DNA from: Alphaproteobacteria bacterium LSUCC0396
GTDB lineage: Bacteria > Pseudomonadota > Alphaproteobacteria > Puniceispirillales > Puniceispirillaceae
Reading direction: 5' to 3'
Length of the DNA stretch: 64,000 nt
Assembly (NCBI GenBank): GCA_041228345.1
Contig: CP166131.1
Coordinates: forward strand, 1,667,001 to 1,731,000
The notes beneath the pieces were generated by a model that searched no databases, was not told the origin of the DNA, and saw nothing but the letters and a program-made list of their open reading frames with translations. The position numbers were made by a program, and so were the translations under genes. Below, one piece after another: positions 38,117 through 55,226 of this stretch (positions are counted from its first letter, which is position 1; each line of letters starts with the position of its first letter).

Positions 38117-39355
38117 ATGATGACAAATAGCGATATCCCAATGGCGCTTGCCGGATTAAAGGTGCTTGATCTTAGCCGGATTCTGGCTGGCCCCTATGCC
38201 GCCCAGACCTTTGCCGATCTTGGCGCGGATGTGGTCAAGGTCGAGAATCCGGATGGCGGCGATGATACGCGCAAATGGGGCCCGCCCTTTACCCGAAATG
38301 GCGATGGAAGCCGCGACGATGCGGCCTATTTCACCGCTTGCAACCGGAACAAACGTTCGGTGACAATTGATTTCTCAACCAAGGAAGGGGCTGATCTTGT
38401 CCGCAAATTGGCGGCTAAGGCAGATATCCTAATCGAAAATTTCAAACCGGGTGGATTGCAAAAATACGGCCTCGACTATGCGTCAATTGCCACGTTTAAC
38501 CCGGGAATTATCTATTGCTCGATTACCGGCTTTGGCCAGACTGGCCCTTATTCGCACCGGTCAGGATATGACTTTTTGATACAAGGCATGGGCGGATTGA
38601 TGAGCATAACCGGTCACCCTGATGGCAGCCCGGGTGGTGCGCCGATGAAGGTTGGGGTCGCGGTATGTGATCTTTTCACCGGAATGTTTGCGGCGAATGC
38701 GGCATTGGCGGCATTGGCCTATCGCCATAAGACTGGCCTTGGTCAGCATATTGATTGCGCGCTATTGGACAGCCAAATTGCGATGCTGGCAAACCAGTCA
38801 GCCAATTGGCTGAATGCCGAGGTTTGTCCGGGGCGGATGGGCAATAGCCACCCCAGCGTTGTGCCCTATACGGTTTATCAGGCCAAGGACGGATTTATCA
38901 TTATCGCTTGCGGCAATGATAAGCAGTTTATCCGTCTAACCGCGGCGCTTGGCGTGCCTGCATTGGCGGATGATGCCGATTTTGCCAGCAATGAAGCGCG
39001 CATTAAAAATCGTGATCGGCTGGATGCAATGCTTGGCGATATTATCGCAGCGCTGGATCGCGCCGAGGTGATTAACAAGCTGGAGACAGCCGGCGTATCA
39101 TGCGGCCCGATCAATGATATAGCCGAGGTTTTTGCCGATCCGCATGTCAAGGCTCGTGGCGCACGAATTGACCAGATGCGTGATGATGGTAGCCAGATCT
39201 CGACGACTGCCTATGCGGCGCGTCTCGGGGTTACACCAGCGCAATATCGCACGCCGCCGCCGCGCCTAGGCGAGCATAATGATCAGGTCATCACAGAATG
39301 GGCAGGGCTGACAGCAGATGAAATTGCGGCCTTGCGCGTGGCAAAGGTGATGTAG
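38117..39355 (+). CDS. Family III (CaiB/BaiF) CoA-transferase
   Basis: A 412-residue CoA-transferase. Hallmarks are LDLSRILAGPYAAQTFADLGADVVKVENP at the N-terminus, CNRNKRSVTIDF, FKPGGLQKYGLDY, GFGQTGPYSHRSGYD and the catalytic-Asp region CALLDSQIAM. Family III enzymes move CoA from succinyl- or acetyl-CoA to carboxylic acids in the cytoplasm. Divergent pairing with an acyl-CoA dehydrogenase suggests activation of a dicarboxylic or branched acid. The acceptor cannot be predicted from sequence. Confidence 0.95.
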   Translation: MMTNSDIPMALAGLKVLDLSRILAGPYAAQTFADLGADVVKVENPDGGDDTRKWGPPFTRNGDGSRDDAAYFTACNRNKRSVTIDFSTKEGADLVRKLAAKADILIENFKPGGLQKYGLDYASIATFNPGIIYCSITGFGQTGPYSHRSGYDFLIQGMGGLMSITGHPDGSPGGAPMKVGVAVCDLFTGMFAANAALAALAYRHKTGLGQHIDCALLDSQIAMLANQSANWLNAEVCPGRMGNSHPSVVPYTVYQAKDGFIIIACGNDKQFIRLTAALGVPALADDADFASNEARIKNRDRLDAMLGDIIAALDRAEVINKLETAGVSCGPINDIAEVFADPHVKARGARIDQMRDDGSQISTTAYAARLGVTPAQYRTPPPRLGEHNDQVITEWAGLTADEIAALRVAKVM

Positions 39356-39754: not shown

Positions 39755-39816
39755 CAAAGTCCAACTCGTTTTATCGTTATCTTGAAAGTCAGTATCATGA
39801 TGCAGGGCAAAACCGG

Positions 39817-40719
39817 CTAGAAATGCATGCCAAATTCGGTGGCAAGTCCGGTGGCCAGCGCGTCGAGCTTATCCTTATCCATCGGGCGCATTGGCGGGCG
39901 CAAATTGCCCCATGCGCTGTGACCGGTTGATCTGGCGAGCAGCGCCTTTTGTGCCGGAATTGGCGCATAATCCTGAAACATTAGCCGCACTGCGCAGACT
40001 TTTTTATGTTTGGCTTCGGCCTGATCCCATTCGCCTGCAAGACAAAGCGCAATGACCTCGGCAATGTCGGTGCCGTTCAAATTCGCCGTTGCTGAAATAC
40101 AGCCAGGCGCGCCAAGCCGGATGGCCTCAATCACCGGTAATTCTGCCCCCGGATAGACGATCAACCCGTCAATCTCAAGCAGTGCTTTGGTGTTGTCCCA
40201 GACGCCCGAGCTGTCTTTGATGCCAACAATTATATCGGGGAAATCAGTATGCAGCTTGCGAACAAGCTCAATTGATAGACCAACGCCGGACACTTGCGGA
40301 ATATGGTAAAGATAGATCTGCATCCGCGGGTCATTTACGCCGGCAATAAGCTGGGCATAATAATCATAAAGGCCGGCATCACTCATCCCCTTGAAATAAA
40401 AGGGCGGCAATACCATCACACCAGCGCAGCCAAGCGATACGGCATGCTGGCAAAGATCAATCGTATCGGGAAGATTGCACAGCCCTGTTCCGGGGATCAT
40501 CACCGCTGGATCAATGCCAGCAGCAACAAGCCCGTCAAGCGCGGCTTTGCGCTCGCCATGGCTAACCGACAGCGCCTCGCCGGTTGTGCCAAAGGGGACA
40601 AGGCCACTAACGCCGGTGGCAAGCAGATGTTTGGCAAGGTCGTTATAGAGTGACTGGTCAAGCTTGAGACTGTCGTCAAACGGGGTAAGGATAGGGGCAA
40701 TAAGACCTTGGATCATCAT
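39817..40719 (-). CDS. Dihydrodipicolinate synthase family (DapA-like) aldolase/lyase
   Basis: A 300-residue class I aldolase-fold enzyme. It carries the family motif GTTGEALSVSHGER, the Tyr in YLYHIPQVSG and the Schiff-base Lys in VGIKDSSG. The family includes DapA, N-acetylneuraminate lyase and KDG or hydroxyproline-derived keto-acid lyases. Being outside any lysine operon and near catabolic genes, it is more likely a pyruvate-dependent keto-acid lyase or dehydratase than biosynthetic DapA. This is inferred from context. It is divergent from pyruvate kinase over a 339-bp gap. Confidence 0.9.
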   Translation of the reverse strand: MMIQGLIAPILTPFDDSLKLDQSLYNDLAKHLLATGVSGLVPFGTTGEALSVSHGERKAALDGLVAAGIDPAVMIPGTGLCNLPDTIDLCQHAVSLGCAGVMVLPPFYFKGMSDAGLYDYYAQLIAGVNDPRMQIYLYHIPQVSGVGLSIELVRKLHTDFPDIIVGIKDSSGVWDNTKALLEIDGLIVYPGAELPVIEAIRLGAPGCISATANLNGTDIAEVIALCLAGEWDQAEAKHKKVCAVRLMFQDYAPIPAQKALLARSTGHSAWGNLRPPMRPMDKDKLDALATGLATEFGMHF

Positions 40720-41058
40720 TTTGCTTTCTGTTGTGAAATACGCCCAGCAGGCAGGATCAGCGGCTAAATTAAGCGGAATGAATTTATCGTGATGAGTATG
40801 GCGTTAAATTTGCCGTTTCTCAAGCCACTAACCGAATGTCGATGCGGGATCTGAAATGTTAAAATTTTGTGAATTGGAAGTTGCCGCTTTGCTTTCCCTC
40901 TAATCAGCCCTAGAATCAGAACTGGTGAAAATCCTAGGCTATTACCCGTTACAACCTTAATGGATAAGGCTCATCTAATGCCAAATTTGGATCCAATGCC
41001 AGATTTGGCCGGAATAATATCAACCGCTAACCTGACGCGATAGAAAGACTGTTTTTAA
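40720..41058. other. 339-bp divergent intergenic region, DapA-like / pyk
   Basis: No long frame is convincing on either strand. It holds a direct repeat (AATGCCAAATTTGG at 40977 and AATGCCAGATTTGG at 40995, one mismatch, 18-bp spacing) that lies inside a short frame ending 15 bp before pyk. Otherwise the sequence is AT-rich with no clear hairpin terminator, so both divergent promoters must be in it. Confidence 0.6.
40978..41043 (+). CDS. Possible 21-residue leader peptide upstream of pyk
   Basis: ATG to TAG frame MPNLDPMPDLAGIISTANLTR ending 15 bp before the pyruvate kinase ATG. TAAGG lies about 9 nt before its ATG. The 5' part contains a duplicated 14-mer, which makes the repeated NLDPMP/DLAG pattern. 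It may be a real small leader or chance; nothing known matches it. Confidence 0.25.
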   Translation: MPNLDPMPDLAGIISTANLTR

Positions 41059-42483
41059 ATGACTGCTGAATTTCCTGCCCTCCAGCGTGCAACGAAAATT
41101 GTTGCAACCCTTGGCAATGTGTCATCAAGCCCTGAAATGCTCGGCAAATTAGCCGCCGCCGGGGTCAATGTCTTTCGTTTGAATTTTTCACATGGCACGC
41201 GTGAAGAACAGGGTGCGCGGATTGATGCTATTCGCGCTCTTGAGGCCAAGACTGGCAATCCGAGCTGTATTCTAGCTGATTTGCAGGGGCCAAAATTCCG
41301 CGTTGGCAAGGTCGCCGATGATACAGTTGTGATCAGTGGTGAGCGAATTGTTTTTGATATAAAAACCGATATGGGCAATGCCAAAATTGTGGGTCTGCCA
41401 CACGCTGAAATTTTCAAGGCGATGTATCCCGGTGCACGGTTGCTGATGGATGATGGTAAACTGGTTTTTAAAGTCGTGTCGGTTGATACCGAAAGTTTCG
41501 AGGCCGAAATCATTGTCGGTGGCCCGCTGAAAAGTCGGAAAGGGGTCAACCTTCCGGACATTATCCTTGATACAACGCCGCTAACAGAAAAGGATCTGGC
41601 TGATCTTGCTTATGCGCTGGAAAAGGGCGTTGATTGGGTGGCGCTATCATTTGTGCAGCGCGCTAGTGATGTTATTGCCGCGCGTACCATTGTTGGCAAA
41701 CAGGCAGCATTGATGTCAAAAATTGAAAAGCCGGCCGCGCTAAAGGATCTAGATGATATCATTGCCGCATCGGATGGGGTGATGGTGGCACGTGGCGATC
41801 TTGGTGTTGAACTGCCGCCCGAACAGGTGCCGGGCTGGCAGAAAACGATCATTTCCAAATGCCGCATGGTCGGCAAGCCCGTTGTGGTGGCAACCCAGAT
41901 GCTGGAGTCAATGATTGAAGCGCCCACCCCGACCCGCGCCGAGGCATCGGATGTTGCTGGTGCGGTGTTTGATGGTGCTGATGCGGTGATGCTGTCGGCA
42001 GAAACTGCGGCGGGTCATTATCCGGTTGAATCGGTCGAGTTTATGGCGCGGATTGTTACTGCTGCCGAGGCGCATATCCGGTCTGATCCAGCATCAGGGC
42101 CGGGCGAATTGCCAGTTGAGCATAGTGTATATCATGCCGTTGCGCGGACCAGTGTTGCGCTTGCAGAAACTGTCGAGGCAAAGGCGATGGTGGCTTTTTC
42201 AAGCTCGGGCAATACCGCTGTTCGGATTGCGCGTGAACGGCCCGGTATCCCATTTTTGGTGATGACGCCGCATCCTGATGTGCAGCGAAAACTATGTTTG
42301 TTATGGGGAACGCACAGCGCCGCCAGTGCATATAGCGAAGATTTTGAGTCGGCAATTACCGAGGCGATCACCGAAATTCGCCGCCGCGGTATGGCTGGCA
42401 CGGGCCAGCAGGTTGTGGTTGTCGCCGGTATGCCGTTTGGCATTGTTGGCACAACAAACTCGATGCGGGTCGTCACGCTCTAG
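41059..42483 (+). CDS. pyk: Pyruvate kinase
   Basis: A 474-residue glycolytic enzyme making pyruvate and ATP from PEP and ADP. It has FRLNFSHGTREEQ, ADLQGPKFRVG, the active-site signature SKIEKPAALKDLDDIIAASDG with MVARGDLGVELP, and the B-domain substrate loop. The C-terminal domain (about residues 350-474) carries SSSGNTAVRIARERP, an effector-type region. Length is normal for the bacterial dimer/tetramer form. The start has only a weak ribosome site (AGAAAGA) and follows a possible leader frame. Confidence 0.97.
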   Translation: MTAEFPALQRATKIVATLGNVSSSPEMLGKLAAAGVNVFRLNFSHGTREEQGARIDAIRALEAKTGNPSCILADLQGPKFRVGKVADDTVVISGERIVFDIKTDMGNAKIVGLPHAEIFKAMYPGARLLMDDGKLVFKVVSVDTESFEAEIIVGGPLKSRKGVNLPDIILDTTPLTEKDLADLAYALEKGVDWVALSFVQRASDVIAARTIVGKQAALMSKIEKPAALKDLDDIIAASDGVMVARGDLGVELPPEQVPGWQKTIISKCRMVGKPVVVATQMLESMIEAPTPTRAEASDVAGAVFDGADAVMLSAETAAGHYPVESVEFMARIVTAAEAHIRSDPASGPGELPVEHSVYHAVARTSVALAETVEAKAMVAFSSSGNTAVRIARERPGIPFLVMTPHPDVQRKLCLLWGTHSAASAYSEDFESAITEAITEIRRRGMAGTGQQVVVVAGMPFGIVGTTNSMRVVTL

Positions 42484-42610
42484 GCAAATCTCATTCGGAT
42501 CAAGATTTTACTTTTATTGAACTAATTTTACTGGATTCTAGCTGATTTTGCTGATCATCTAACGGCAAAGATATGAGGTCACATTGATCTCCATGCTAGG
42601 GAGATAGAAA

Positions 42611-43576
42611 ATGCATTCAGTTGGGTTTATCGGGCTTGGAAATGTTGGTGGCAAGCTGGCGGGCAGCTTGTTAAGGAACAAATGCGATGTCATGGTTCGC
42701 GATCTTGATCAGGACGTGGCGGCGCCATTCCTGGCCGCTGGTGCGAAATGGGCTGACAGCCCAAAGGCTATGGCTGAGGCCTGCGACATCATTATAACCT
42801 GCCTGCCATCTCCGGCTGCAAGCGCCGCAGTCATGGAAGCTGAAGACGGCATTCTTGCTGGCCTTAGTGCAGGTAAAATCTGGGCTGAAATGAGCACGAC
42901 TGACGCGGCCGAAGTTGGTCGTCTTGGCGGCTTGGTTCTGGCGAAAGGGGCTAGTCCAGTTGATTGCCCGGTCTCGGGTGGTTGTCACCGGGCGGCAACT
43001 GGTAATATCGCTATTTTTGCCGGTTGTGATCGGCCCGTTTTTGAGCGGCTTTTGCCAGTGTTGACAATCCTTGGTCGGCGCGTTCTCCACACTGGGCCAT
43101 TGGGCACTGCATCCGTGCTTAAAGTGATGACAAATTATCTGGCGACGGCCAATTTGATTACATTATGCGAGGCGCTGGTAACGTCAAAAATGGCTGGAAT
43201 GGATTTAAACACCACCTATGAGGCGATTCGCATTTCGTCGGGCAACTCGTTTGTCCATGAAACCGAAAGTCAGGTTATCCTGAACGGCAGCCGTGATATC
43301 AATTTCACCATGGATCTGGTGCTAAAGGACATTGGCCTGTTTCAGTCGATTGCCGAGCAGCATAATGTGCCGCTGGAGGTGTCTCCACTATTGATCAAGA
43401 TTTTTGAAGATGGGCAAAACCGGTTTGGCCCGCGAGAATGGTCGCCAAATATTATTAAACGCTTAGAAGAAGCCTGTAACACCGAAATTCTGGCACCGGG
43501 GTTTCCGGCAGAAATGACTGATGATGAACCCGAAGAGCCGGGCTATGAGGTTATCCCAAAATCTTTAAGCCATTGA
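42611..43576 (+). CDS. Beta-hydroxyacid dehydrogenase with C-terminal extension
   Basis: A 321-residue member of the 3-hydroxyisobutyrate dehydrogenase family, the second in this window. The Rossmann motif GFIGLGNVG starts at residue 5. The substrate loop is CPVSGGCHRAATG and the catalytic Lys lies in VLKVMTNYL. After the usual fold it has about 25 acidic residues (MTDDEPEEPGYEV) not seen in the other two. AGGGAG stands before the ATG. Its last 34 bp overlap the 3' end of a convergent zinc-knuckle protein gene. The substrate is unknown. Confidence 0.88.
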   Translation: MHSVGFIGLGNVGGKLAGSLLRNKCDVMVRDLDQDVAAPFLAAGAKWADSPKAMAEACDIIITCLPSPAASAAVMEAEDGILAGLSAGKIWAEMSTTDAAEVGRLGGLVLAKGASPVDCPVSGGCHRAATGNIAIFAGCDRPVFERLLPVLTILGRRVLHTGPLGTASVLKVMTNYLATANLITLCEALVTSKMAGMDLNTTYEAIRISSGNSFVHETESQVILNGSRDINFTMDLVLKDIGLFQSIAEQHNVPLEVSPLLIKIFEDGQNRFGPREWSPNIIKRLEEACNTEILAPGFPAEMTDDEPEEPGYEVIPKSLSH

Positions 43577-44067
43577 TCAATCGGCAATTGGCCGGTTTCT
43601 CGTGCCCAGTAAAGATAAACCGCAAGACAGGCGATAATCAGCAGATATAACGGGACGCGCGTAACGGTCTGATCGCGTTCTGGCGGGCGAAGATTTTCGG
43701 TGGTGATTATGTCGTCTGGACTGTGATAATCGGTGATCGGTGCCGCTGATTGCATCAGATCAGCTGGATTGATCGCGCAATCACACAAAGGGCAGACTAA
43801 ATCAACAATCGCAGGATCAGGCAACGGATCGGGGACGCTGATCGGATTTCTGCAGCTCGGGCAGTCAAAAATATCCATCTTGGCAAGCCGCGCTCGTTTG
43901 GTTCCGGTCGCGCGATTATGATCAAGACCGAATTGCGCATTACAACTGTGACAGGCAATTGCCACAGTTCTGCCATCTGCCTCCGCTGCGGCAATTGCGC
44001 TTTGTGATAACAGGCAAACACTTCCGCATTGTGGGCAATGACGCATGTTTATATTAAGCTCGCTCAT
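43543..44067 (-). CDS. Zinc-knuckle (MJ0042-type) membrane-anchored protein
   Basis: A 174-residue protein with two Cys4 zinc-ribbon units: CPQCGSVC...CHSC (residues about 11-43), which resembles the MJ0042 finger with a conserved GRTVAIAC spacing, and CPSC...CPLC (about 66-95). A single membrane helix LLIIACLAVYLYWA follows near residue 145, so the fingers face the cytoplasm. Its 3' end overlaps the convergent dehydrogenase gene by 34 bp. GGAG is 9 nt before the ATG at 44067; the 44073 start is an alternative. The role is unknown. Confidence 0.7.
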   Translation of the reverse strand: MSELNINMRHCPQCGSVCLLSQSAIAAAEADGRTVAIACHSCNAQFGLDHNRATGTKRARLAKMDIFDCPSCRNPISVPDPLPDPAIVDLVCPLCDCAINPADLMQSAAPITDYHSPDDIITTENLRPPERDQTVTRVPLYLLIIACLAVYLYWARETGQLPIDQWLKDFGITS

Positions 44068-44268
44068 TATCATCTGCTCCGCGTCAGCTAAACATCAGCT
44101 TATTATAATTGCCGCCGGTCATTAGGTCGACCACAGCACCTGATCCCGATCAATGGTAACAAACAATTTAATGCGCATCATCAGGCAATTTTAACTATTT
44201 TTGTCAGAACCTTAGGGCCGTTTATATTCTGGGTCTATGCGACCAGTGTCAAACATTCACCGTCAAGT

Positions 44269-44877
44269 CTATAACGCGCGTCCGTTCAGCTGTTTTGCCA
44301 ACTGATTAATAATGGTCTCAATGTTCGGCAGATGAGGATTTAAACGCTGGGCAGCACGATAAGCCTGCAAGCCGCCTTGCAGGTCGCCAGCCCGCACCCG
44401 AATCATACCCAATCCCGAAAGCGCTCCGAAATGGCGCGGCTCTAGCGTGATAACTTGCAAAATATCACGTGCTGATCCATCGTCATTGCCACGAAAAAAC
44501 CGGACAGTGGCACGTTTATTCCACGCTTCGGCAAAGCTCGGTTGGCGTGCAATGATCGCGCTAAAAGCCGCTTCGGCTTCGTCAAGGCGACCAGCATTCA
44601 TCAAATTGATGCCATTTGCCATCTGACCATTGATGAGCGAATTATCCGGAAATTTAGTCCATCTTGCCCATATTTCGCGCTCATAATTTGCCGCCTTGGC
44701 TGGCGATATGCTGGTTTGCAAGGCAGCGAAAAGTCCGTCCAGCTTTGGGTCATGCTGGTCGGCGCCAACAATTGGGCTAAACAGGGCAATGGTTACAAAC
44801 ACTATCACCTGTCGCCAGCATAATTTTGCCCAGTATATTTTCGTAAGGTCTATGTTGGGTCGAACATACATCATCAT
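44269..44877 (-). CDS. TPR-repeat periplasmic protein
   Basis: A 202-residue protein with a signal segment after a 20-residue basic leader (QVIVFVTIALFSPIVGA-DQ). Tetratricopeptide repeats follow (about residues 85-195: NLMNAGRLDEAEAAFSAIIA, AWNKRATVRFF, ALSGLGMIRVRAGDLQGGLQ). TPR domains make protein contacts, so this is probably an envelope-assembly or scaffold protein. Three adjacent ATGs exist; the longest is given. It has no operon partner: a 195-bp gap follows and a 149-bp gap precedes it. Confidence 0.78.
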   Translation of the reverse strand: MMMYVRPNIDLTKIYWAKLCWRQVIVFVTIALFSPIVGADQHDPKLDGLFAALQTSISPAKAANYEREIWARWTKFPDNSLINGQMANGINLMNAGRLDEAEAAFSAIIARQPSFAEAWNKRATVRFFRGNDDGSARDILQVITLEPRHFGALSGLGMIRVRAGDLQGGLQAYRAAQRLNPHLPNIETIINQLAKQLNGRAL

Positions 44878-45026
44878 AGCTTACCGCGTGATTATTTGAT
44901 TGCCAAGCCGAAGGCGTGGGTGCGTGGCATCGTTATTTTGTTACAAATCCTAATTGAGATAAAATTAACGCGTTACGAAGCAGATTTTTATTTGCATCGA
45001 TTCTTTAAGGGGTTTGGTGGGAGATA

Positions 45027-45386
45027 TTGTTTGGGTCATCTGATTTTTTAACGACGCTGGTTCCGTTTATGCGTTCTTATCGGCGTGGCGTGTTGTTAGC
45101 TTGCCGGTGTGGCATTATGACCGATGTGGCAGCCGCGGACAGGCTTGATAAACCATTGAAGGCAGCATTGCAGGCAACCATGATCCGCTTCATTGATAAC
45201 GCGTCAGATGATGATGGCGGGTTTCGCTATATTGATCGACAAAGCGGAAAATTAATCACCGCTTATCCCGGCGCAATCCATCCAAAAATCATTCCGGTTG
45301 GATCGAATTATTTTCTTTGTATTGATACAATGGCGGCAAATGGGACGCTGCGGCTTGTTGTTTTTCTGGTTCGTGAAGGGCGCTAG
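45027..45386 (+). CDS. Conserved-looking small protein of unknown function
   Basis: A 119-residue protein that I do not recognise. TTG is the likely start, since GGTGGGAG stands 5 nt before it; the first ATG lies 42 bp later (MRSYRRG) without a ribosome site. It has a positively charged N-terminal half, one cysteine pair in LLACRCG, then a compact domain with IDNASDDDGGFRYIDR and GSNYFLCIDTMAANG. No signal peptide or membrane helix is clear. Confidence 0.55.
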   Translation: MFGSSDFLTTLVPFMRSYRRGVLLACRCGIMTDVAAADRLDKPLKAALQATMIRFIDNASDDDGGFRYIDRQSGKLITAYPGAIHPKIIPVGSNYFLCIDTMAANGTLRLVVFLVREGR

Positions 45387-45588
45387 GGCCAGATGGTTGT
45401 TGATGTAATCATCGTGTAACAGCAATTAACCAAATTGGTGGAACCGATCAAATTCCATCAAAAACAGCCTTTGAACAAATACAACAGGCTGGCAGAATGC
45501 TGCTAATTAAGAATTTGCTCAAATTGAAATCTTACATGCGGGCATTTTTGCGGTAATCGAGCACAGTTTTTTAGCGGTTTATTGCTGG

Positions 45589-45990
45589 CTAGCTTTGCCG
45601 CCATTGGAGGCCGCTAAACCGCCAGCCATTTATGTGACCTCGTTGCTGATGGGCATCAAGATCGCCCTCAAATCCGTCACTGATGTTGATTACGCTCTTG
45701 TAGCCGGCCGCCAGTGCGGCATTGCCCGCTGCCAAAGATCGCACCCCCGATCTGCATAGCATCAGCACGCAAGTGTCGTCCGGGACTGCGGCAGCCAAAT
45801 CTTCGATGAAACGTGGGTTCGCCGTGCCATCAACGCCGACCCATTCAATGAGAATCGGTTGCCGGTCAAGATCATCCAGATTGGTGATACCAACAAAATG
45901 CCACTCGGCACGGGTGCGCACATCAACAAGCTGGGCGTCTGGGTTCTGGGCCAAATGAGCCCAAGCCTCGGCGGCGGTCATCTCCAACAT
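45589..45990 (-). CDS. Single-domain rhodanese
   Basis: A 133-residue sulfurtransferase-like protein with QLVDVRTRAEWHFVG and the active loop LCRSGVRS, whose catalytic cysteine is residue 79; ISDGFEG follows. The ATG at 45990 has AGGA 8 nt upstream; a longer frame from 46059 is not supported. No signal peptide is present, so it is cytoplasmic. It may take sulfane sulfur generated by the sox system or by cysteine metabolism. It is divergent from acuI over 196 bp. Confidence 0.87.
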   Translation of the reverse strand: MLEMTAAEAWAHLAQNPDAQLVDVRTRAEWHFVGITNLDDLDRQPILIEWVGVDGTANPRFIEDLAAAVPDDTCVLMLCRSGVRSLAAGNAALAAGYKSVINISDGFEGDLDAHQQRGHINGWRFSGLQWRQS

Positions 45991-46186
45991 GGTAAAAATC
46001 CTGCAACAAACGGTAAGATGTTTATTATTAGCCAAAGGATCATTGATGCCAAGCCTCAATTGATTAGGGCCAGCGGCTCTAGCATAGAGGTTTGACGCCA
46101 GCTTGATTAGGGCTGTTTGGCATCGGTGAAAAATGCTATTGAAAATTTGTCAGATAATCACATCAGATACATATAGGAGCAACGCC

Positions 46187-47185
46187 ATGTCTAGTTTTAG
46201 AGCCCTTATGGTGCATCGCGGCGAAGATAAATCTATAAGTCATGAAATGACAGATTTGCGGCATGATGATTTGCCTGCAGATGGTGATGTTCTGGTGGCA
46301 ATCAAATATTCAACGGTCAATTACAAGGACGGTCTATGCCTGTCGGGCAAGGGCGGGTTGGTGCGAAACTATCCGCATGTTCCGGGCATTGATTTTGCCG
46401 GTGAAGTGGTCAGCAGTGCCGACAAGCGTTACAAGGCGGGCGATCTTGTGGTGCTGACGGGATGGCGGGTTGGCGAGGTATGGTGGGGCGGTTACGCGCA
46501 ATTTGCCAAGGTGCGCGCCGACTGGCTGGTGCCGCTTGCAGATGGGTTGGATTGCCAGCAGGCAATGGCGATCGGTACCGCCGGTGTCACTGCGATGCTA
46601 TCGGTTCTGGCGCTTGAAAATGCAGGGATTACGCCAGATCGCGGGCCGGTGCTGGTTACTGGTGCTGCTGGCGGTGTTGGCTCGCTTGCAACAGCATTGC
46701 TGGCCGTGCGCGGCTATCACGTTACCGCGGTAACGGGCCGGCCTGAAACGGCTGATTATCTGCGGGGGCTTGGTGCCAGCGATATTCTGCCGCGGGCTGA
46801 GATGCTGGACGGCGGTGGGCGGCCGCTGGAATCGGAAAGCTGGGCCGGATGTGTCGACTCGGTTGGTAGCGCAATATTGGCAAGAGCCCTTGCCCAGATG
46901 CAATATGGCGGTGCAGTGGCGACGGTCGGGCTTGCTGGTGGTGCTGACCTGCCAACAACGGTAATTCCATTTATTATCCGCGGCGTGTCGCTATTGGGAA
47001 TCGATTCGGTAATGGCGGCGTATGATCGCCGGGTTGCGGCGTGGCAGCGTCTTGCAAGCGATTTGCCAACGGCGCAGATCGCAGCAACCATGTCGGTGAT
47101 CGGGCTTGGCGAGGTGCCAGCGGCAGGTGCCGATATTCTGGCGGGCAAGGTTATGGGCCGATTGGTTGTTGATGTAAATGCCTAG
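46187..47185 (+). CDS. acuI: Acryloyl-CoA reductase AcuI (YhdH/YhfP-type quinone oxidoreductase)
   Basis: A 332-residue medium-chain reductase without zinc ligands. It has FRALMVHRGEDKS at the start, STVNYKDGLCLSGKG, the NADP motif TGAAGGVGSLATALL (about residue 160) and PFIIRGVSLLGIDS, all typical of AcuI/YhdH. AcuI turns acryloyl-CoA to propionyl-CoA, the step that detoxifies and assimilates DMSP-derived acrylate. AGGAG stands 6 nt before the ATG. The gene directly downstream is a DMSP lyase, which strongly supports this role over a generic quinone reductase. Confidence 0.92.
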   Translation: MSSFRALMVHRGEDKSISHEMTDLRHDDLPADGDVLVAIKYSTVNYKDGLCLSGKGGLVRNYPHVPGIDFAGEVVSSADKRYKAGDLVVLTGWRVGEVWWGGYAQFAKVRADWLVPLADGLDCQQAMAIGTAGVTAMLSVLALENAGITPDRGPVLVTGAAGGVGSLATALLAVRGYHVTAVTGRPETADYLRGLGASDILPRAEMLDGGGRPLESESWAGCVDSVGSAILARALAQMQYGGAVATVGLAGGADLPTTVIPFIIRGVSLLGIDSVMAAYDRRVAAWQRLASDLPTAQIAATMSVIGLGEVPAAGADILAGKVMGRLVVDVNA

Positions 47186-47307
47186 GCTAGGGCCGATGGC
47201 TGTGCCGCGATCGCCAATGATAAAATGATTGCCATATCGCAATTTTAGCGTTTAGCTGAGGCAAAGATCAGGCCAATCTGCTTGGCAATAGTGGCAAGGA
47301 GGCGGCG

Positions 47308-48636
47308 ATGGATAAAACCATTATTGGCTCAAACCGAAAAATCGACCCTAGCCGGCGGGTGCATCTTAAAGCTGATTTAACACCAGATGATAATGATCGT
47401 GTCGAGATTGGCCCGACCGCAGTGGCCTTTGATGAGTGGCACGCTGCCGGCATCAGCCCGCCCGATCTTCCCGCTTTGAGATCATATCGATTGTCACGCT
47501 TGCAAGCGCAAATCCGCCAGCATGATTGTGCCGGTTTGCTGTTGTTTGATCCGTTGAATATTCGCTATGCCAGTGATTGCACTAATATGCAGCTTTGGAT
47601 TGCGCATAATCCGGCACGGGCGGTGTTTGTGCCGCCTGAGGGCAAGATGATCTTGTGGGATTTTCATAATTGTGAGCATCTTTCGGCGCATCTGCCACTG
47701 ATCGGTGAATTGCGCGGTGGTGCCAGTTTTTTCTATTTTGAAACCGGCGACCATACTGCGCGGGCGGCCAAGGATTTCGCCACTCAGATTGTCGATTTGA
47801 TGGCGCATCACGCTGGCACAAATAAACGCTTGGCGGTCGACCGGATCGAGCATGTTGGCTATGCCGCATTAACTGATCTTGGGGTCGAGGTGCTAGAAGG
47901 CCAAGTACTGACCGAACATGCACGCTCGATCAAGAATGATAATGAATTAAACGCGATGCGATGCGCCATTCATACGTGTGAGCGGGCGGTTGATGAAATG
48001 CGCGAAATCATGCGCCCGGGGCTGAGCGAGACTGAATTATGGGCGGCATTACATGCTGGCAATATCAAACGCGGCGGTGAATGGATTGAAACGCGGATTT
48101 TGGCATCGGGCCCGCGCACCAATCCGTGGTTTCAGGAATGTGGGCCGCGCATTATGCAGACCGGCGATCTGATGGCCTTTGATACTGACCTTGTCGGCAC
48201 ATATGGCTATTGCTGCGATATTTCACGGACATGGATCGTGGGTGATGCTGTGCCAACTGACCGGCAAAAGCATCTTTACCAGATTGCCTATGATCATGTG
48301 ATGACAAACATCGGCCTGATCGAGGCCGGCATGAGCTTTGCCGATATGACGCGAATTGCGCACCGCTTGCCAGAGGCGTTTCGCCCGCTGCGCTATGGTG
48401 TATTGGCGCATGGCGTTGGGCTTTGCGATGAATATCCGTCGGTACGCTATCCAGAAGATGTCGAGGCGCATGGCTATGGCGGCAATTTTGAGGTCGGAAT
48501 GACACTTTGTGTCGAGGCCTATGTTGGCGCTGTTGGCGGTGTTGATGGGGTCAAGCTTGAAGAACAGGTGCTTGTCACCGACAGGGGTGCGGTGCCGCTA
48601 TCTACCTATCGGTATGAAGACCAATTCCTAGCCTGA
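47308..48636 (+). CDS. dddP: DMSP lyase DddP (M24 metallopeptidase-like)
   Basis: A 442-residue M24-fold protein that cleaves dimethylsulfoniopropionate to dimethyl sulfide and acrylate. It shares DddP-specific strings: RKIDPSR, DNDRVEIGPT, FDPLNIRYASD, NMQLWIAHNP, RGGEWIETRILASGPRTNP. The family metal ligands all appear: Asp292, Asp294, Asp304, His368, Glu403 and Glu418, with the same spacing I recall for the Roseobacter enzyme (295/297/307/371/406/421). Asp374 matches the proposed catalytic base. AGGAGG precedes the ATG. It lies 122 bp after acuI, forming a complete DMSP-to-propionyl-CoA pair. Confidence 0.95.
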   Translation: MDKTIIGSNRKIDPSRRVHLKADLTPDDNDRVEIGPTAVAFDEWHAAGISPPDLPALRSYRLSRLQAQIRQHDCAGLLLFDPLNIRYASDCTNMQLWIAHNPARAVFVPPEGKMILWDFHNCEHLSAHLPLIGELRGGASFFYFETGDHTARAAKDFATQIVDLMAHHAGTNKRLAVDRIEHVGYAALTDLGVEVLEGQVLTEHARSIKNDNELNAMRCAIHTCERAVDEMREIMRPGLSETELWAALHAGNIKRGGEWIETRILASGPRTNPWFQECGPRIMQTGDLMAFDTDLVGTYGYCCDISRTWIVGDAVPTDRQKHLYQIAYDHVMTNIGLIEAGMSFADMTRIAHRLPEAFRPLRYGVLAHGVGLCDEYPSVRYPEDVEAHGYGGNFEVGMTLCVEAYVGAVGGVDGVKLEEQVLVTDRGAVPLSTYRYEDQFLA

Positions 48637-48720
48637 GCGGATAGGCATCCTAATAGCGCGCCACCATAAGTCAGACCAGCAGAGGCAATAGCTAAAGAGG
48701 GATTATCGGCAAAGCTGTTA

Positions 48721-49263
48721 TTAAAGGTCTTTAACAACACCAATATGTGGAAGATTGCGACCTTGTTGGGCAAAATCAATGCCATAGCCAATGACAAATG
48801 CGTCTGGAATGTCAAAGCCAACCCAATCGACATTCACATCAACTTCGCGCCGAGACGGTTTATTCAACAGCGTGCAGATCGACAGGCTTTTTGGTGATCG
48901 TGTCATTAAGATTTTTTGCACTTGCGACAAGGTATGGCCGGTGTCGACAATATCCTCGACAATCAGGACATCGCGGTTTTTGATCGGGGTTTCGAGATCT
49001 TGAATGATTCGCACCTGACGGGATGAAACCGTGTCATTACCGTAAGACGAAACGGTCATGAAATCAACCTCGACGGGAAGCGCCAACCGGCGCACAAGAT
49101 CGGCAATAAACACAAATGACCCGCGTAATAGCCCGACGACAACCAACTGTTCGGTGCCTTTGTAATGTTCGGTAATTTGACGGGCAAGATTAATCGTTCG
49201 GGCGGCAATCTCGGCTTCGGTAATCAGAATGTCGATTTCCTGCTGGCTTGATAATACGGTCAT
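48721..49263 (-). CDS. hpt: Hypoxanthine phosphoribosyltransferase
   Basis: A 180-residue purine-salvage enzyme making IMP from hypoxanthine and PRPP. It has the PRPP-binding motif [14 protein letters not shown] (about residues 98-111), [15 protein letters not shown] earlier and DFMTVSSYG, as in bacterial Hpt. It acts in the cytoplasm. Its stop lies 84 bp from the end of the convergent dddP gene. Confidence 0.94.
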
Positions 49264-49454
49264 GCGCTAAGATCACCCCTGTCTTGGCAAGTGGTATTTG
49301 ATTGTTAGATCGGCTGCTTCTTGATGTTACACCGCCGAACGCGCCTCAGTATAATCGTGCTGACGGAAATGGCTATGGCAAATTACGGTGGCGACAATCT
49401 CATTAAGGTTTCGACCATTGAGGTTCTGGCCGATAAATTGAAAAGGAATATTTT

Positions 49455-50324
49455 ATGTCAAAAGTTGCATTTCTGGGTATGGGTGTCATGGGCTATCCGA
49501 TGGCAGGTCATATCGCAGCTGCTGGTCACGACGTGACCGTTTATAACCGGACACCAGCTAAAGCCGAGGCGTGGGCTGGCCAGCATGGTGGCGCTTTCGC
49601 GCTGACCCCGGCTGCCGCTGCTAGGGACGCTGATTTCGTGTTCTGCTGTGTTGGTGATGATCCTGATGTGTTGTCAGTTGCGCTTGGTGATGAGGGCGCA
49701 ATTCCGGCAATGAAGAATGGCGCGGTCTTTATTGATAATAGCACTGTTTCGGCCGATGTCGCGCGGCAGGTTTATTCAGCTGCCAAGGCGGCGAGTATCT
49801 CCTCGCTGGATGCACCGGTTTCTGGTGGTCAGGCAGGTGCTGAAAATGGCAAATTGACGGTGATGGTTGGCGGTGATGATGCGGCGTTTGCGGTGGCGCT
49901 TCCGCTGATGGAATGCTATGGAGCGCGGGTTGTCCATATGGGTGATGCTGGCAAAGGTCAGCAAGCCAAGATGGTCAATCAAATCTGCATTGCCGGTCTG
50001 GTTCAGGCGCTGTCTGAGGGGCTTAGCTTTGCGATGGATGCGGGCCTCGACACGGATAAATTGCTTGAGGCGATTTCAGGGGGTGCCGCGCAATCATGGC
50101 AGATGGTTAATCGCGGCGAAACCATGGTCAAGGGCGAGTTTGATTTTGGCTTTGCCGTCGACTGGATGCGCAAGGATTTGCGGATTTGTCTGGAAGAGGC
50201 GAAGCGCAATGGGGCGTCCTTGCCGGTAACTGAAATTGTTGCCGGATATTACGCCGAGCTTAGTGCCGATGGCTATGGCCGCAATGATACCTCAAGCCTG
50301 ATCCGCCGGTTGCGGCAGGGCTAG
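49455..50324 (+). CDS. Beta-hydroxyacid dehydrogenase (2-hydroxy-3-oxopropionate reductase / 3-hydroxyisobutyrate dehydrogenase type)
   Basis: A 289-residue NAD(P)-dependent enzyme, the most canonical of the three family members in this window. It has GMGVMGYPMAGH, then DAPVSGGQAGAENGKLTVMVGG and the catalytic Lys in AKMVNQIC; YAELSADGYGRNDTSSLIR is typical near the end. AAAGGA is just upstream of the ATG. It reduces tartronate semialdehyde or oxidises 3-hydroxyisobutyrate; which one is undecided. A strong terminator follows. Confidence 0.92.
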   Translation: MSKVAFLGMGVMGYPMAGHIAAAGHDVTVYNRTPAKAEAWAGQHGGAFALTPAAAARDADFVFCCVGDDPDVLSVALGDEGAIPAMKNGAVFIDNSTVSADVARQVYSAAKAASISSLDAPVSGGQAGAENGKLTVMVGGDDAAFAVALPLMECYGARVVHMGDAGKGQQAKMVNQICIAGLVQALSEGLSFAMDAGLDTDKLLEAISGGAAQSWQMVNRGETMVKGEFDFGFAVDWMRKDLRICLEEAKRNGASLPVTEIVAGYYAELSADGYGRNDTSSLIRRLRQG

Positions 50325-50345
50325 TCAAAATCTGTTGGAATCGAA

Positions 50346-50372
50346 TAAGGCCGGGAACTCCCGGCCTTTTTT
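50346..50372 (+). terminator. Terminator after the 49455 dehydrogenase
   Basis: AAGGCCGGG and CCCGGCCTT (9-bp perfect arms) around AACT, followed by T6. It is the strongest GC-stem terminator in this part of the window. Confidence 0.92.
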
Positions 50373-50376
50373 ATAG

Positions 50377-50421
50377 CGTTGATTCTTAAAACGTTGATCC
50401 TTAGTGCGTTGATTCTGGTGG
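50377..50421. repeat. 15-bp tandem repeat, three copies
   Basis: CGTTGATTCTTAAAA, CGTTGATCCTTAGTG and CGTTGATTCTGGTGG start at 50377, 50392 and 50407, an exact 15-bp period with an 8-of-9 or better conserved core CGTTGATYC. It lies between a terminator and the 3' end of the convergent gabD gene, so a regulatory role is unlikely; local duplication is the simplest reading. Confidence 0.7.
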
Positions 50422-50446
50422 ATAGTTTTTGACGTGGTGGCGGTAA

Positions 50447-51898
50447 TTACACGCCGATACAGACAAATTTAATCTCTAGAAACTCATCAATGCCATATTT
50501 CGACCCTTCACGGCCAAGGCCGGAATTCTTGACCCCGCCAAACGGGCCAACCTCGGATGAGAAAATGCCTGTGTTGGCCGCGACAATGCCATATTCCAAT
50601 GCCTCACTGACGCGGAACAGGCGCGATGCATTTTCGGTAAACAGATAGGCAGCAAGGCCAAATTCAGTGTCATTTGCCGCTTCGATGGCTTCGGCTTCAT
50701 CGGTAAATCTGAACAGGCCAGCGACTGGACCAAAGGTTTCCTCGCGGAACATCCGCATCGACGTGTTCATGTTTGTCAGGACTGTTGGCTCAAAAAATGT
50801 GCCGCCAAGATCATGTGGCTTGCCGCCGGTTAATGCCGTCGCCCCTTTTGCCAGCGCATCCTCAACATGGGCTGACACTTTTTCAAACCCCTGCTGATCA
50901 ATTAACGGACCCTGTTCAACACCATCCTCAAGGCCGTTGCCGACCCGCATCGCGGCCGATTTTTCGGCGAGACGCTTGGCGAATTCATCATAGATTCCAT
51001 CTTGAACGAAAATCCGGTTTGCACAGACGCAAGTCTGCCCCGCATTGCGGTATTTTGACATCATCGCGCCTTCGACAGCAACGTCAAGATTGGCATCATC
51101 AAACACCAGCAATGGCGCGTTACCGCCAAGCTCAAGGCTCATTTTCTTTACCGTATCAGCGCTCTGGCGCATCAGGATACGGCCGACTTCGGTCGATCCG
51201 GTAAAGGTCATTTTGCGGATACGGCTGTCGCTGCAAAGCGCCTGACCAATCGCCGGCGCATCGAGGCCAGTGACGATGTTCATTACCCCTGCCGGAATAC
51301 CGGCGCGGGTTGCAAGTTCGGCAAGCGCCAGCGCAGATAGCGGGGTTTGCTCGGCCGGTTTCAACACACAAGCACATCCCGCGGCAATGCCGGGGGCAAC
51401 TTTTCGGGTAATCATCGCAATTGGAAAATTCCACGGCGTGATGGCACCAAAAACGCCGATCGGCTGTTTGAATGTCAGCAGGCGTTTGTCGGCCTGCGGG
51501 CTTTCCATGACATCGCCACAAACCCGGCGCGCTTCTTCACCAAACCAGTCAATAAAGCTGGATCCATAGGCAATTTCTCCTTTTGCTTCGGCCAAAGGCT
51601 TGCCCATTTCAGTGGTAAGGATCATCGCCAGATCATCGGTGTTTTCGACCACCAGATCATACCAGCGCCGCAAAATCATTGCGCGGGTTTTGGCCGGCGT
51701 AGCTGCCCAGGCTTTTTGCGCTGGAACAGCAGCATCAATCGCCGCAGTAATGGCACCGGCGCCAAGATCGGCAACCTCGGCAATCAGGCTGCCATCGGCC
51801 GGATTATGAACACCAAAAACGCGGCCATCTTCGGCGCTAACCCATGCGCCATTGATATAGGCCTCAGTGCGAAGAAGTGACGGATCCTTTAATTTCAT
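50447..51898 (-). CDS. gabD: NAD(P)-dependent succinate-semialdehyde dehydrogenase
   Basis: A 483-residue aldehyde dehydrogenase. It opens KDPSLLRTEAYINGAW, typical of GabD, with the glutamate LELGGNAPLLVFDDA and the nucleophile Cys in NAGQTCVCANR. It oxidises succinate semialdehyde (or a similar semialdehyde) to the acid. The ATG at 51898 has GGAGG 8 nt upstream; an upstream 51949 start would add 17 residues without such a site. It stands alone with no gabT nearby. Confidence 0.9.
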   Translation of the reverse strand: MKLKDPSLLRTEAYINGAWVSAEDGRVFGVHNPADGSLIAEVADLGAGAITAAIDAAVPAQKAWAATPAKTRAMILRRWYDLVVENTDDLAMILTTEMGKPLAEAKGEIAYGSSFIDWFGEEARRVCGDVMESPQADKRLLTFKQPIGVFGAITPWNFPIAMITRKVAPGIAAGCACVLKPAEQTPLSALALAELATRAGIPAGVMNIVTGLDAPAIGQALCSDSRIRKMTFTGSTEVGRILMRQSADTVKKMSLELGGNAPLLVFDDANLDVAVEGAMMSKYRNAGQTCVCANRIFVQDGIYDEFAKRLAEKSAAMRVGNGLEDGVEQGPLIDQQGFEKVSAHVEDALAKGATALTGGKPHDLGGTFFEPTVLTNMNTSMRMFREETFGPVAGLFRFTDEAEAIEAANDTEFGLAAYLFTENASRLFRVSEALEYGIVAANTGIFSSEVGPFGGVKNSGLGREGSKYGIDEFLEIKFVCIGV

Positions 51899-52040
51899 TT
51901 TATCGGCCTCCAATGCCGCTAGACGATCGGTAAATCTTTTGGAACGCATGAGAGACCAGCTGGCCTGCGCCCTATGTGGTTAATTAGCATCATTTATAGC
52001 CGGCTTACAATCTACGAAAACAGATGATCCGGGCAATTGG

Positions 52041-52619
52041 TCACATGGACGGCAATGGATGGCTGTGCATATCAATAAACGGCGCGCCCGCGGCACCAAG
52101 CCTGTGCGCCCGCCCAACCTCGACATAATGGCGGGCAATACGGCGGTTATTGGCAATTTCATCGGCTGTCAGATCGCGCATCTTGCGCGCCGGGCGTCCG
52201 CCCCACAGCTCGCCAGCGGGAATCCGTTTTCGCGGTGTCAGCATGCCGCCAGCAGCCAACATACCGTCAGACTCGATAACCGCGCCATCCATTACGATTG
52301 ACCCCATCCCGACAAAGGCATGGTCATGTAAATGACACGCATGGACAAGCGCGCTATGGCCAATATTCACATTATTGCCGATGATCGTTGGAAAATCGCG
52401 GCTGTTAATGTGAACGCAGCTATTATCCTGAATATTGGTGCCCTCACCAACGGTAATGAAATTATTATCACCACGCAAAGTCACCTGATGCCAGATGGTG
52501 CTGTTCTTGCCGATGCGCACCGCGCCAACGACTGCAGCGGTCTCGGCGATATAAGCACTATCATCGATTTCCGGGTGATGATCTAAAAAAGGGGCAATAT
52601 AGGCTTTTCGGCCAGTCAT
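52041..52619 (-). CDS. Gamma-class carbonic anhydrase family protein
   Basis: A 192-residue left-handed beta-helix (hexapeptide repeat) protein. It has hexapeptide-like rungs IGKNSTIWHQVTLRG, VGEGTNIQDNSCVHIN and NVNIGHSALVHACHLHDH, whose His residues match the zinc triad of gamma carbonic anhydrases. It forms a trimer. A simple carnitine-operon-type or bacterial gamma-CA role is possible. AGAGGA stands 7 nt before the ATG. Confidence 0.88.
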   Translation of the reverse strand: MTGRKAYIAPFLDHHPEIDDSAYIAETAAVVGAVRIGKNSTIWHQVTLRGDNNFITVGEGTNIQDNSCVHINSRDFPTIIGNNVNIGHSALVHACHLHDHAFVGMGSIVMDGAVIESDGMLAAGGMLTPRKRIPAGELWGGRPARKMRDLTADEIANNRRIARHYVEVGRAHRLGAAGAPFIDMHSHPLPSM

Positions 52620-52843
52620 GCTATTTTCCTCTGTCTTGAATCCTATTTCTCGGGCCAGTCTGTCTTGAGCCTTATGTCTTGATGCCTTTGCTCTAGGGCG
52701 GAGATGGCATTAACCCAAGGCTGTTTGGTGATAATTTAGCAGGTTGCCGCCGCCTGTCAGTTTTATTTTGTTGGCATTTGAAAATTCGTGACTATATCTG
52801 TTTAGAGATAGATTAATCACCAGAGATAATTTTGGAGACCAAA

Positions 52844-53443
52844 ATGGCATTTGAACTACCTGACCTTCCTTATGCGCACGATGCACTCGCAGATTTTGGC
52901 ATGAGCGCCGAAACCCTTGAATATCATCATGACTTGCATCACAACGCCTATGTGGTCAATGGTAATAACCTGATCGCTGGTACCGAATGGGAAGGCAAAG
53001 CACTCGAAGATATCATCACCGGCACTTATGATGCCAATGCGGTTGCGCAAAATGGCATTTTCAACAATGCATCGCAGCATTGGAATCACATGAAATTCTG
53101 GGAAATGATGGGGCCAAAAGGGCGCGCCATGCCATCTGAGTTGGAGGCCGCATTGACGGAATCATTTGGGTCGGTCGACGCGTTCAAAGACGCGTTCAAG
53201 GCTGCAGGTGCAGGTCAATTTGGCTCAGGCTGGTGCTGGCTTGTCAAAAATAGCGACGGTGGCCTTGCTGTGACCAAAACCGAAAATGGCGTGAACCCGC
53301 TATGTTTTGGGCAAACAGCACTGCTTGGGTGTGATGTGTGGGAACATTCCTATTACATCGATTTCCGGAATAAGCGCCCTGACTATCTGGCAAATTTCCT
53401 CGAAAATCTTGTTGATTGGGAATATGTTGCTGCCCAGCTATAG
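52844..53443 (+). CDS. sodB: Iron/manganese superoxide dismutase
   Basis: A 199-residue enzyme that dismutates superoxide in the cytoplasm. It shows FELPDLPYAHDAL, the metal His in HHDLHHNAYV, NASQHWNHMKFW with the second His, and DVWEHSYYIDFRNKRPDYLANF with the last Asp and His. TTGGAGA is just before the ATG at 52844, so the upstream in-frame TTG at 52832 is rejected. A terminator follows 48 bp after the stop. Fe versus Mn cannot be decided from this sequence by eye. Confidence 0.96.
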   Translation: MAFELPDLPYAHDALADFGMSAETLEYHHDLHHNAYVVNGNNLIAGTEWEGKALEDIITGTYDANAVAQNGIFNNASQHWNHMKFWEMMGPKGRAMPSELEAALTESFGSVDAFKDAFKAAGAGQFGSGWCWLVKNSDGGLAVTKTENGVNPLCFGQTALLGCDVWEHSYYIDFRNKRPDYLANFLENLVDWEYVAAQL

Positions 53444-53490
53444 GCATCTTTGTTGGCTTAAAGCCGCTATAGATTTGCGGTGAATTATGA

Positions 53491-53526
53491 AAGCCGTCAC
53501 CCTGCTAAAGGGCGACGGTTTTTTTA
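53491..53526 (+). terminator. Terminator after sodB
   Basis: CCGTC and GACGG arms (53494-53498, 53514-53518) with an inner CCC/GGG pair form the stem, followed by T7. Confidence 0.85.
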
Positions 53527-53668
53527 TGGTTCTTTTGGTGGCCTGAATTTAAGCGAAAATTAGCCTCAATTGACTGTCAAAAACCCCTCATCCAAAGGCC
53601 TCGTTGTCGACGGCGTCATGCCAAGCCGGATAGCAAGGTTAACAGCAACTAGAGGGAGAGGCATCACA

Positions 53669-53899
53669 ATGGGCGTTGCAATAGCAATTCTGGTCATGCT
53701 CGGATTTTATCATTCTGAATCGATGCAGGAATTTCGAGCCAACAGCAACCACAATCCTGTTTATAAATTTGTCCCCGGGGTTCCCTGCGATTCGGGCCTA
53801 AAACAGTCAGGCTTTTCGGTAGTTCCGACGGGAAGACTATATCTTAAACAGGTTAATCGCGATGGCAAGGTCGGTGATATTTGCCGTCCGCAAGACTAG
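53669..53899 (+). CDS. Small single-helix membrane or secreted protein of unknown function
   Basis: A 76-residue protein. The ATG at 53669 is supported by GGGAGAGG about 7 nt upstream, whereas earlier in-frame starts (TTG at 53570) lack a site. It begins [14 protein letters not shown], a short hydrophobic stretch that could be a signal or anchor. Two cysteines occur, in VPCDSG and DICRPQ. It overlaps the 3' end of argG on the opposite strand by 4 bp. I recognise no family. Confidence 0.55.
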
Positions 53900-55113
53900 C
53901 TGTCCTGCACCATTTTCTGCACACGAAGGCGAAGTGCGTTCAACCGGATAAAGCCGTGTGCATCGCCGTGATCATAGTCAACGGCGCCATCCTCAAAGGT
54001 TACAAGATCAGCGTTATAGAGTGAGTTTGGCGACTTGCGACCCGTCACGGTAACATTGCCCTTATAGAGTTTGATCCGAACCACCCCATTGACTGCATCA
54101 CGGCAGCTATCAATGGCGGCTTGCAGCATTTCACGCTCGGGCGAGAACCAGAAACCGTTATAGACCAGCTCGGCATAACGCGGCATCAGCTCGTCTTTGG
54201 TGTGCATCGCGCCACGGTCGAGCGTGATTGACTCCATTGCCCGCCGTGCGGTCAGCAAAATTGTGCCGCCCGGTGTTTCGTAAACACCGCGTGACTTCAT
54301 GCCGACAAACCGGTTTTCAACCAGGTCAAGGCGGCCAATACCGTTATCGCCGCCAAGCCGGTTCAACGCGGCAAGCAAATTGGCTGGTGACAACTCTTTG
54401 CCGTCAATGGCAATGGGATCGCCAGATTTAAAGGTGATTTCGATTTCAGTCGGCTTGTCGGGTGCCTGTTCGGGCGACACACTTCTCGAGAAAACATATT
54501 CTTCCGGCGCGACCCATGGATCTTCCAGCACTTTACCTTCGGCGGAAATATGCAGCAGGTTGGCATCAACACTAAATGGCGCTTCGCCGCGTTTATCCTT
54601 TGGAATTGGGATTTGATTGGCCTCGGCATAGGCGATCAATTTTGTGCGGCTGCTAAGGTCCCATTCGCGCCATGGTGCAATCACTTTAATATCGGGCTGC
54701 TGGGCATAATAGGCCAATTCAAAGCGCACCTGATCATTGCCTTTACCGGTGGCGCCATGCGAGACGGCCTCGGCACCAACATCTCGGGCAATTTCGATTT
54801 GCCGTTTGGCGATCAATGGTCGTGCGATTGATGTGCCAAGAAGATAGGCACCCTCATAGAGCGGGTTTGCCCGGAACATGGGGAACACATAATCGCGCAC
54901 GAACTCTTCACGCAAATCCTCGATGTAGATTTGCTTAATGCCCAAAAGCTCGGCCTTGGCGCGGGCTGGTTCAATGTCTTCGCCCTGACCAATATCGGCG
55001 GTAAAGGTTACCACCTCGGCGCGGTAATGATCTTGCAACCACCGCAAAATAACCGAAGTATCAAGGCCGCCGGAATAGGCGAGAACGACTTTTTTAATAT
55101 CTTGCTTGCTCAT
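53896..55113 (-). CDS. argG: Argininosuccinate synthase
   Basis: A 405-residue enzyme of arginine biosynthesis joining citrulline and aspartate with ATP. It has the N-type ATP motif [14 protein letters not shown] (residues 10-23), [18 protein letters not shown], the aspartate/citrulline region [16 protein letters not shown] and [13 protein letters not shown]. Length and order are normal. No other arg gene is next to it, which is common in alphaproteobacteria. Confidence 0.97.
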
Positions 55114-55226
55114 AAGAAATTTCTATATCCGATCACCTGCTGCCTCGCAACGACGTTTTTTGTGATTTGGATTTTGGCGAGGATCCATTCGCACTCCAAT
55201 TTATAGTTCGCGCCCCGATTTATAGT

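Follow-up and report, generated by a model that had tools for sequence, protein, structure and literature searches.

Retention and apparent loss of dddP beside acuI in a SAR116 genome and its relatives

The window analysed here, a 64,000-nucleotide stretch of the single-contig genome (2,592,803 bp) of the SAR116 isolate LSUCC0396, carries acuI and dddP side by side. We put a probability of roughly 0.87 on an explanation, drawn from sequence comparison, in which DddP would lyse DMSP, the acrylate would be activated elsewhere, AcuI would reduce the resulting acrylyl-CoA, and dddP would be an accessory gene that can be lost. In the proposed series of steps, DddP, a two-metal enzyme of the M24 fold, would cleave imported DMSP to DMS and acrylate, as its homology and invariant active site suggest; a PrpE-like ligase would be the likeliest enzyme to turn acrylate into acrylyl-CoA, a step taking place elsewhere in the cell; AcuI, judged by homology, would use NADPH to turn the toxic acrylyl-CoA into propionyl-CoA; and propionyl-CoA would enter the methylmalonyl-CoA route, whose mutase is present in the genome as sequence. 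The dddP gene itself would be an accessory member of a neighbourhood between acuI and an HPRT-type gene that is conserved in the family, and appears to have been lost there in several relatives, three of them with relics. LSUCC0396 has been assigned to subclade Ia.IV with a G+C content of 0.51 (PMC12262181), and the G+C content of the window is 0.514. The features considered are as follows.

38117..39355, plus strand: family III CoA-transferase gene, 6.8 kb from acuI; a role as acrylate activator is not supported
45589..46059, minus strand: rhodanese-domain gene upstream of acuI, a neighbour with no pathway role assigned
46187..47185, plus strand: acuI, predicted acrylyl-CoA reductase, 332 aa (PDB 5gxf 440 bits; TIGR02823 431.6; NF051456 419.3)
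47186..47307, plus strand: acuI-dddP gap, 122 bp, with an AAGGAGG ribosome-binding motif at 47296-47302
47308..48636, plus strand: dddP, encoding a predicted M24-fold DMSP lyase of 442 aa, assigned from models, structures, trees and residues
48181..48561, plus strand: metal-ligand codons together with those of the proposed catalytic residues (Asp292, Asp294, Asp304, Tyr363, His368, Asp374, Glu403 and Glu418)
48721..49263, minus strand: phosphoribosyltransferase gene (HPRT type), convergent with dddP and used as the site marker in relatives

Both acuI and dddP are intact and lie on the plus strand, 122 bp apart. An AGGAG motif stands 7 nt ahead of the acuI ATG at 46187, and AAGGAGG stands 5 nt ahead of the dddP ATG. 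A longer acuI frame opening at 46133 proved unnecessary, given that the match to 5gxf begins at residue 4 counted from the 46187 start and that this start has its own AGGAG. Scanning the gap between the two genes revealed no terminator-like site on the plus strand, and promoter-like and terminator-like sites occurred at chance level only. Moreover, no Rfam family matched within positions 38000-56000, and the gap folded no better than its shuffles (z = -0.43); on these grounds, an RNA element or terminator in the gap was rejected.

The initial annotation had identified the M24-fold gene as dddP on the strength of its metal ligands and of an Asp374 at the proposed base, and this identification is borne out. 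The best solved structures for the protein were 4rzy (490 bits) and 4b28 (453 bits), with the next M24 protein at 68 bits, and the NCBIfam DddP model scored 568.7 bits versus 55.7 for the next model; the M24 domain PF00557 was matched at 115.9 bits against a cut-off of 23. All six metal ligands (Asp292, 294, 304, His368, Glu403, 418), together with Tyr363 and Asp374, are present in the window's protein and do not vary among the 102 distinct DddP rows compared, so that realignment cost no ligand; these rows derive from 143 loci matching DddP, after merging of duplicates and exclusion of six loci with internal stops or short length, three of which were the same broken gene. The ligand and catalytic roles have been described under the numbering Asp295, 297, 307, Tyr366, His371, Asp377, Glu406 and 421 (PMC4108388). 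Trees placed the window's protein inside the DddP clade, apart from other M24 proteins, with very long outgroup branches in one tree, and neither the trees nor the structure matches grouped it with non-DddP M24 peptidases. Pairwise dN/dS values of dddP were 0.079, 0.077, 0.076 and 0.089 against the relatives G086, G093, G078 and G073, respectively, dS being saturated for the last two. Separately, the DddP frame of an uncultured Rhodobacteraceae (L102) contains one internal stop and is perhaps a broken copy or an assembly error.

We also considered whether the gene could encode a peptidase or another hydrolase of the prolidase, creatinase or ectoine hydrolase type, a reading with which the M24 domain and a score below the NCBIfam DddP cut-off (568.7 of 600) would agree. 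We judge it very improbable, in view of the low scores of the top non-DddP model and structure, the retention of Tyr363 and Asp374 in every DddP row, and the absence of Asp374 from all six other M24 proteins of this genome, three of which align poorly. The DddP of G078, which we take from its gene order to be the DMS-making Ca. Puniceispirillum marinum IMCC1322, likewise misses the cut-off at 572.2 bits. Among ten further relatives, eight DddP proteins scored under 600 and the other two 600.7 and 610.6, so that 10 of the 12 tested SAR116 copies of the window's type fall below a value that is a naming threshold for the equivalog rather than a biological feature; on the same model, Roseovarius nubinhibens DddP reached 895.7 and Oceanimonas DddP 629. 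Because G078 and most of these relatives miss it too, we read the shortfall of the window's protein as threshold bias. For the same reason, automatic annotation may name such genes plain M24 peptidases and undercount the group, an effect of which we found no published account in the literature on SAR116 dddP and acuI. Collectively, these comparisons place the predicted product of 47308-48636 among the DddP DMSP lyases, far beyond chance.

For the upstream gene, the best structure was the AcuI of Ruegeria pomeroyi (PDB 5gxf), matched over its full length at 440 bits, and the score on the NCBIfam acrylyl-CoA reductase family TIGR02823 (431.6 bits) passed the cut-off of 297, which places the product in the YhdH/AcuI group of MDR reductases. 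On the narrower AcuI model NF051456, it scored 419.3 bits, 21 short of the cut-off of 440, and the G078 AcuI scored 396.6. These matches indicate that 46187-47185 encodes a predicted AcuI-type acrylyl-CoA reductase, in keeping with the earlier report of an AcuI-family gene adjoining dddP. In the AcuI tree, the SAR116 rows, including the window's copy, formed one group of 45 with a support of 96, outside which R. pomeroyi grouped with other alphaproteobacterial rows; an exception among the SAR116 rows was the acuI of G122, which lies on another contig and fell near R. pomeroyi in a weak group. That a Roseobacter acuI had replaced the native copy in the window's genus was hinted at by an AcuI only 48-61% identical to those of other SAR116 members, with DddP identity being higher, and was rejected on the basis of this tree.

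The pair as such is not new, being a known pair in one further SAR116 genome. The pair in G078 is the same as that in the window in gene order, strand and neighbourhood (HPRT, HIBADH, SSADH, SOD, ArgG), with 83% identity in DddP and 61% in AcuI; G078 belongs to another genus, and the differences are of sequence distance only, with a gap of 90 bp versus 125 bp in the window when measured between coding ends without the stop codon. Todd et al. (2012) had already drawn acuI upstream of dddP in the SAR116 strain IMCC1322 (SAR116_1428/1427) and described it as the sole closely linked case then known (PMC3338564), and Choi et al. (2015) showed DMS production from DMSP by this strain, the dddP transcript rising as well (PMC4304780). 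The word acuI is absent from the main text of two further SAR116 papers (PMC12262181, PMC8547437). The DddP proteins of Roseovarius nubinhibens, Roseobacter denitrificans and Ruegeria (4b28, 4rzy) share the fold family, the six ligands and the Tyr366/Asp377 equivalents with that of the window; nevertheless, R. nubinhibens DddP is approximately 51% identical to it and falls in a separate clade (support 100/98 and 100/100), and Roseobacter dddP is described as not linked to acuI (PMC3338564), unlike the pair examined here. The Oceanimonas-type DddP (L053, Oceanimonas sp. CHS3-5) shares the wider clade at 60% identity, but its locus has no acuI within 6 kb of dddP.

The arrangement Pyk-HIBADH-TPR-(rhodanese)-acuI-dddP-HPRT-HIBADH-SSADH-(carbonic anhydrase type)-SOD-ArgG is found repeatedly, with gaps, across the window's family. 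Of the 38 family genomes with this dddP type, 32 carry acuI upstream of dddP with both genes sharing contig and strand, and in 26 of these the two are at most 250 bp apart. Four genomes without acuI upstream (G096, G108, G109 and G123) have only 172-1023 bp left to the contig end, and the dddP copy of G118 (L052) is itself cut by a contig end; G122 truly lacks acuI at this position, with 5.7 kb of upstream sequence available. As a side observation, a 119-aa open reading frame with a TTG start and no Pfam match (45027-45386, plus strand) is matched by 37-72% identical proteins at the corresponding position of several relatives and is a conserved unknown.

Within the window's genus, acuI is found in 13 genomes and is followed by dddP in six; in the other seven (G080, G081, G087-G090 and G092), acuI and HPRT are just 85-322 bp apart, without any dddP. 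The same empty site occurs in G101 and G103 (genus g7) and in G095 (genus g6). In the gaps of G080, G081 and G090, we detected 3' relics of dddP that correspond to all or some of DddP residues 387-435, in the expected orientation and position, with scores reached by none of 300 shuffles. No relic was found in the other seven of the ten empty gaps, six of which gave matches whose scores were reached by 30 to 142 of 300 shuffles and one of which gave no match. The three relic genomes are close kin, and the losses there may be one event. In G084, whose acuI is 98% identical, dddP is broken by two in-frame stops, its start codon is altered and its ribosome-binding site is shorter; the gene's dN/dS of 0.18 is the highest of seven genes compared (others 0.02-0.07). 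In G077, too, the dddP copy is interrupted, but a further dddP of Roseobacter-like type is present in the same genome. The relatives are draft assemblies in which single breaks may be errors; assembly error is an unlikely source of several independent breaks in one gene. Together, these alignments mark dddP as an apparently removable piece between acuI and the HPRT gene, and we found no published account of such removal in the literature on SAR116 dddP and acuI.

Since acuI stays where dddP has been lost, it must also serve something besides this dddP. Conceivably, DddP cleaves DMSP, and AcuI acts mainly on acrylyl-CoA or methylthio-acrylyl-CoA of other origin, for instance from DMSP demethylation, the neighbourhood being only historical. 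The seven same-genus genomes with acuI and an empty site speak for this proposal, as do family f4 (for example L230 and L235), in at least 8 of whose 12 genomes a DmdA-like gene follows acuI at a distance of 36-122 bp, and the Roseobacters, most of which have acuI 3' of dmdA (Todd et al., PMC3338564). The window's genome also encodes a DmdA over the cut-off (559 bits against 410), and two paralogues score 384 and 376 bits among the 4 of 14 GCV_T matches scanned; with a true DmdA in addition to DddP, both DMSP routes appear to be encoded. However, the same strand and close spacing of acuI and dddP are kept in 32 of 38 genomes, and the DmdA-like gene of f4 is a sub-cut-off paralogue (382-396 bits); the two such genes compared share 59-60% identity with the window genome's own 384-bit paralogue and 42% and 38% with its true DmdA. 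We hold this proposal to be a tentative possibility, short of even odds. Order-wide, among 136 genomes, 52 have both genes, 6 dddP only, 14 acuI only and 64 neither, giving dddP of either type in 58 and acuI in 66. This co-occurrence arises mostly because one family lacks both genes, and a tight genome-wide coupling was rejected: without that family it is weak (p = 0.066, 78 genomes), and among 37 genomes at least 90% complete p is 0.43, both counts ignoring kinship.

In our preferred explanation, AcuI would take up the product of DddP after activation elsewhere. The pair had been presented as a complete lyase-to-propionyl-CoA module, which goes too far, and the accompanying remark that the acrylate activation step was not obvious locally was accurate: no gene for converting acrylate to acrylyl-CoA was found in the stretch of the window examined. 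Profile searches of the genome yielded 12 AMP-binding, 11 CoA-transferase III, 14 GCV_T and 15 crotonase matches, of which all 12, 5 (the window's gene included), 4 and 10, respectively, were scanned with models. The likeliest candidate for acrylate activation is the PrpE-like ligase L150, 0.69 Mb away, the only one of the 12 AMP-binding proteins with propionate-CoA ligase as its best model (735.2 bits, below the cut-off of 955). AcuN, an established enzyme of acrylate activation, is a family III CoA-transferase. Were the gene at 38117 to act in this manner, the region would hold a full pathway, AcuN-AcuK being one of two published acrylate routes (PMC5651017). The initial annotation was correct that such a gene lies near acuI, but the acrylate role is highly unlikely: its best matches among the families compared are succinate-glutarate (507.5 bits, below the cut-off of 750) and succinate-hydroxymethylglutarate CoA-transferases; it is kept at the same place in six of the seven same-genus genomes without dddP here, the seventh stretch being too short to reach it; and the genome has ten further matches to the domain, two of these to one open frame.

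Downstream of acrylyl-CoA, several crotonases (10 of 15 scanned) pass general enoyl-CoA hydratase cut-offs, one of which may act as AcuH, and methylmalonyl-CoA mutase is matched at 1133 bits (cut-off 876), 11 kb beyond the window. The carboxyltransferase candidate for propionyl-CoA matches the methylmalonyl-CoA decarboxylase model at 771 bits, below its cut-off of 999. A search that was positive in 4 of 14 control genomes found no BCCT-type transporter in this genome; a BCCT-family DMSP importer was rejected on this ground, and DMSP must enter by another importer. Half of the GCV_T matches (seven of 14) fall within reading frames longer than 800 aa, which presumably resemble dehydrogenase fusions for methylated amines. 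As to the suggested pairing of DMSP use with sulfur oxidation in one organism, Sox-type proteins are indeed encoded at 18.2-25.3 kb of the window, 21-28 kb from the pair; the combination itself is already published, with dddP, dmdA and sox genes reported in SAR116 (PMC12262181, PMC8547437).

A second dddP lineage occupies a similar position in family f4, 11 of whose 12 genomes have dddP and HPRT in convergent orientation, 27-1612 bp apart; the twelfth, G131, has no HPRT in the remaining 1.5 kb of its contig. Five f4 DddP rows shared 60-66% identity with R. nubinhibens and 49-54% with the window, and three rows from the window's family shared 60-64% with Oceanimonas and 51-53% with R. nubinhibens. 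In a 60-row tree without fungal rows, the window's family (f1) grouped as a single clade within the Oceanimonas side (100/100), and f4 fell on the Roseobacter side (100/99); SAR116 dddP has previously been placed next to fungi (PMC4304780). Forcing f1 and f4 together was 195 log-likelihood units worse, with a p-AU of 0.0002 (model LG+G4) that is indicative, as the group was named after the first tree was seen. Exchange in place and two separate insertions would both fit this pattern. Separately, the second, Roseobacter-side dddP copies of G075 (L214) and G110 (L215) are nearly identical between two genera (branches 0.009 and 0), reflecting either recent transfer or mixed-up bins.

We found no published account, in the literature on SAR116 dddP and acuI, of Roseobacter-type and Oceanimonas-type dddP by the same HPRT gene. 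We lean slightly towards a broader view in which the HPRT-flanked site would be a long-lived seat of DMSP lyases in Puniceispirillales whose occupant has been exchanged, with either an Oceanimonas-type or a Roseobacter-type dddP beside HPRT-SSADH-SOD-ArgG; acuI would have exchanged a DmdA-like partner, as seen in one family, for dddP, as seen in the other; and in the window's genus dddP would have been shed in place with acuI kept, so that close SAR116 strains would differ in DMS emission.

In some areas of the oligotrophic northwestern Pacific, the majority of dddP sequences came from SAR116 (PMC4304780). If dddP comes and goes among close SAR116 members while acuI stays, the presence of SAR116, or of acuI, would be no proxy for DMS production; if so, matched strains with and without dddP would provide a clean natural experiment on the value of the lyase to its host cell.
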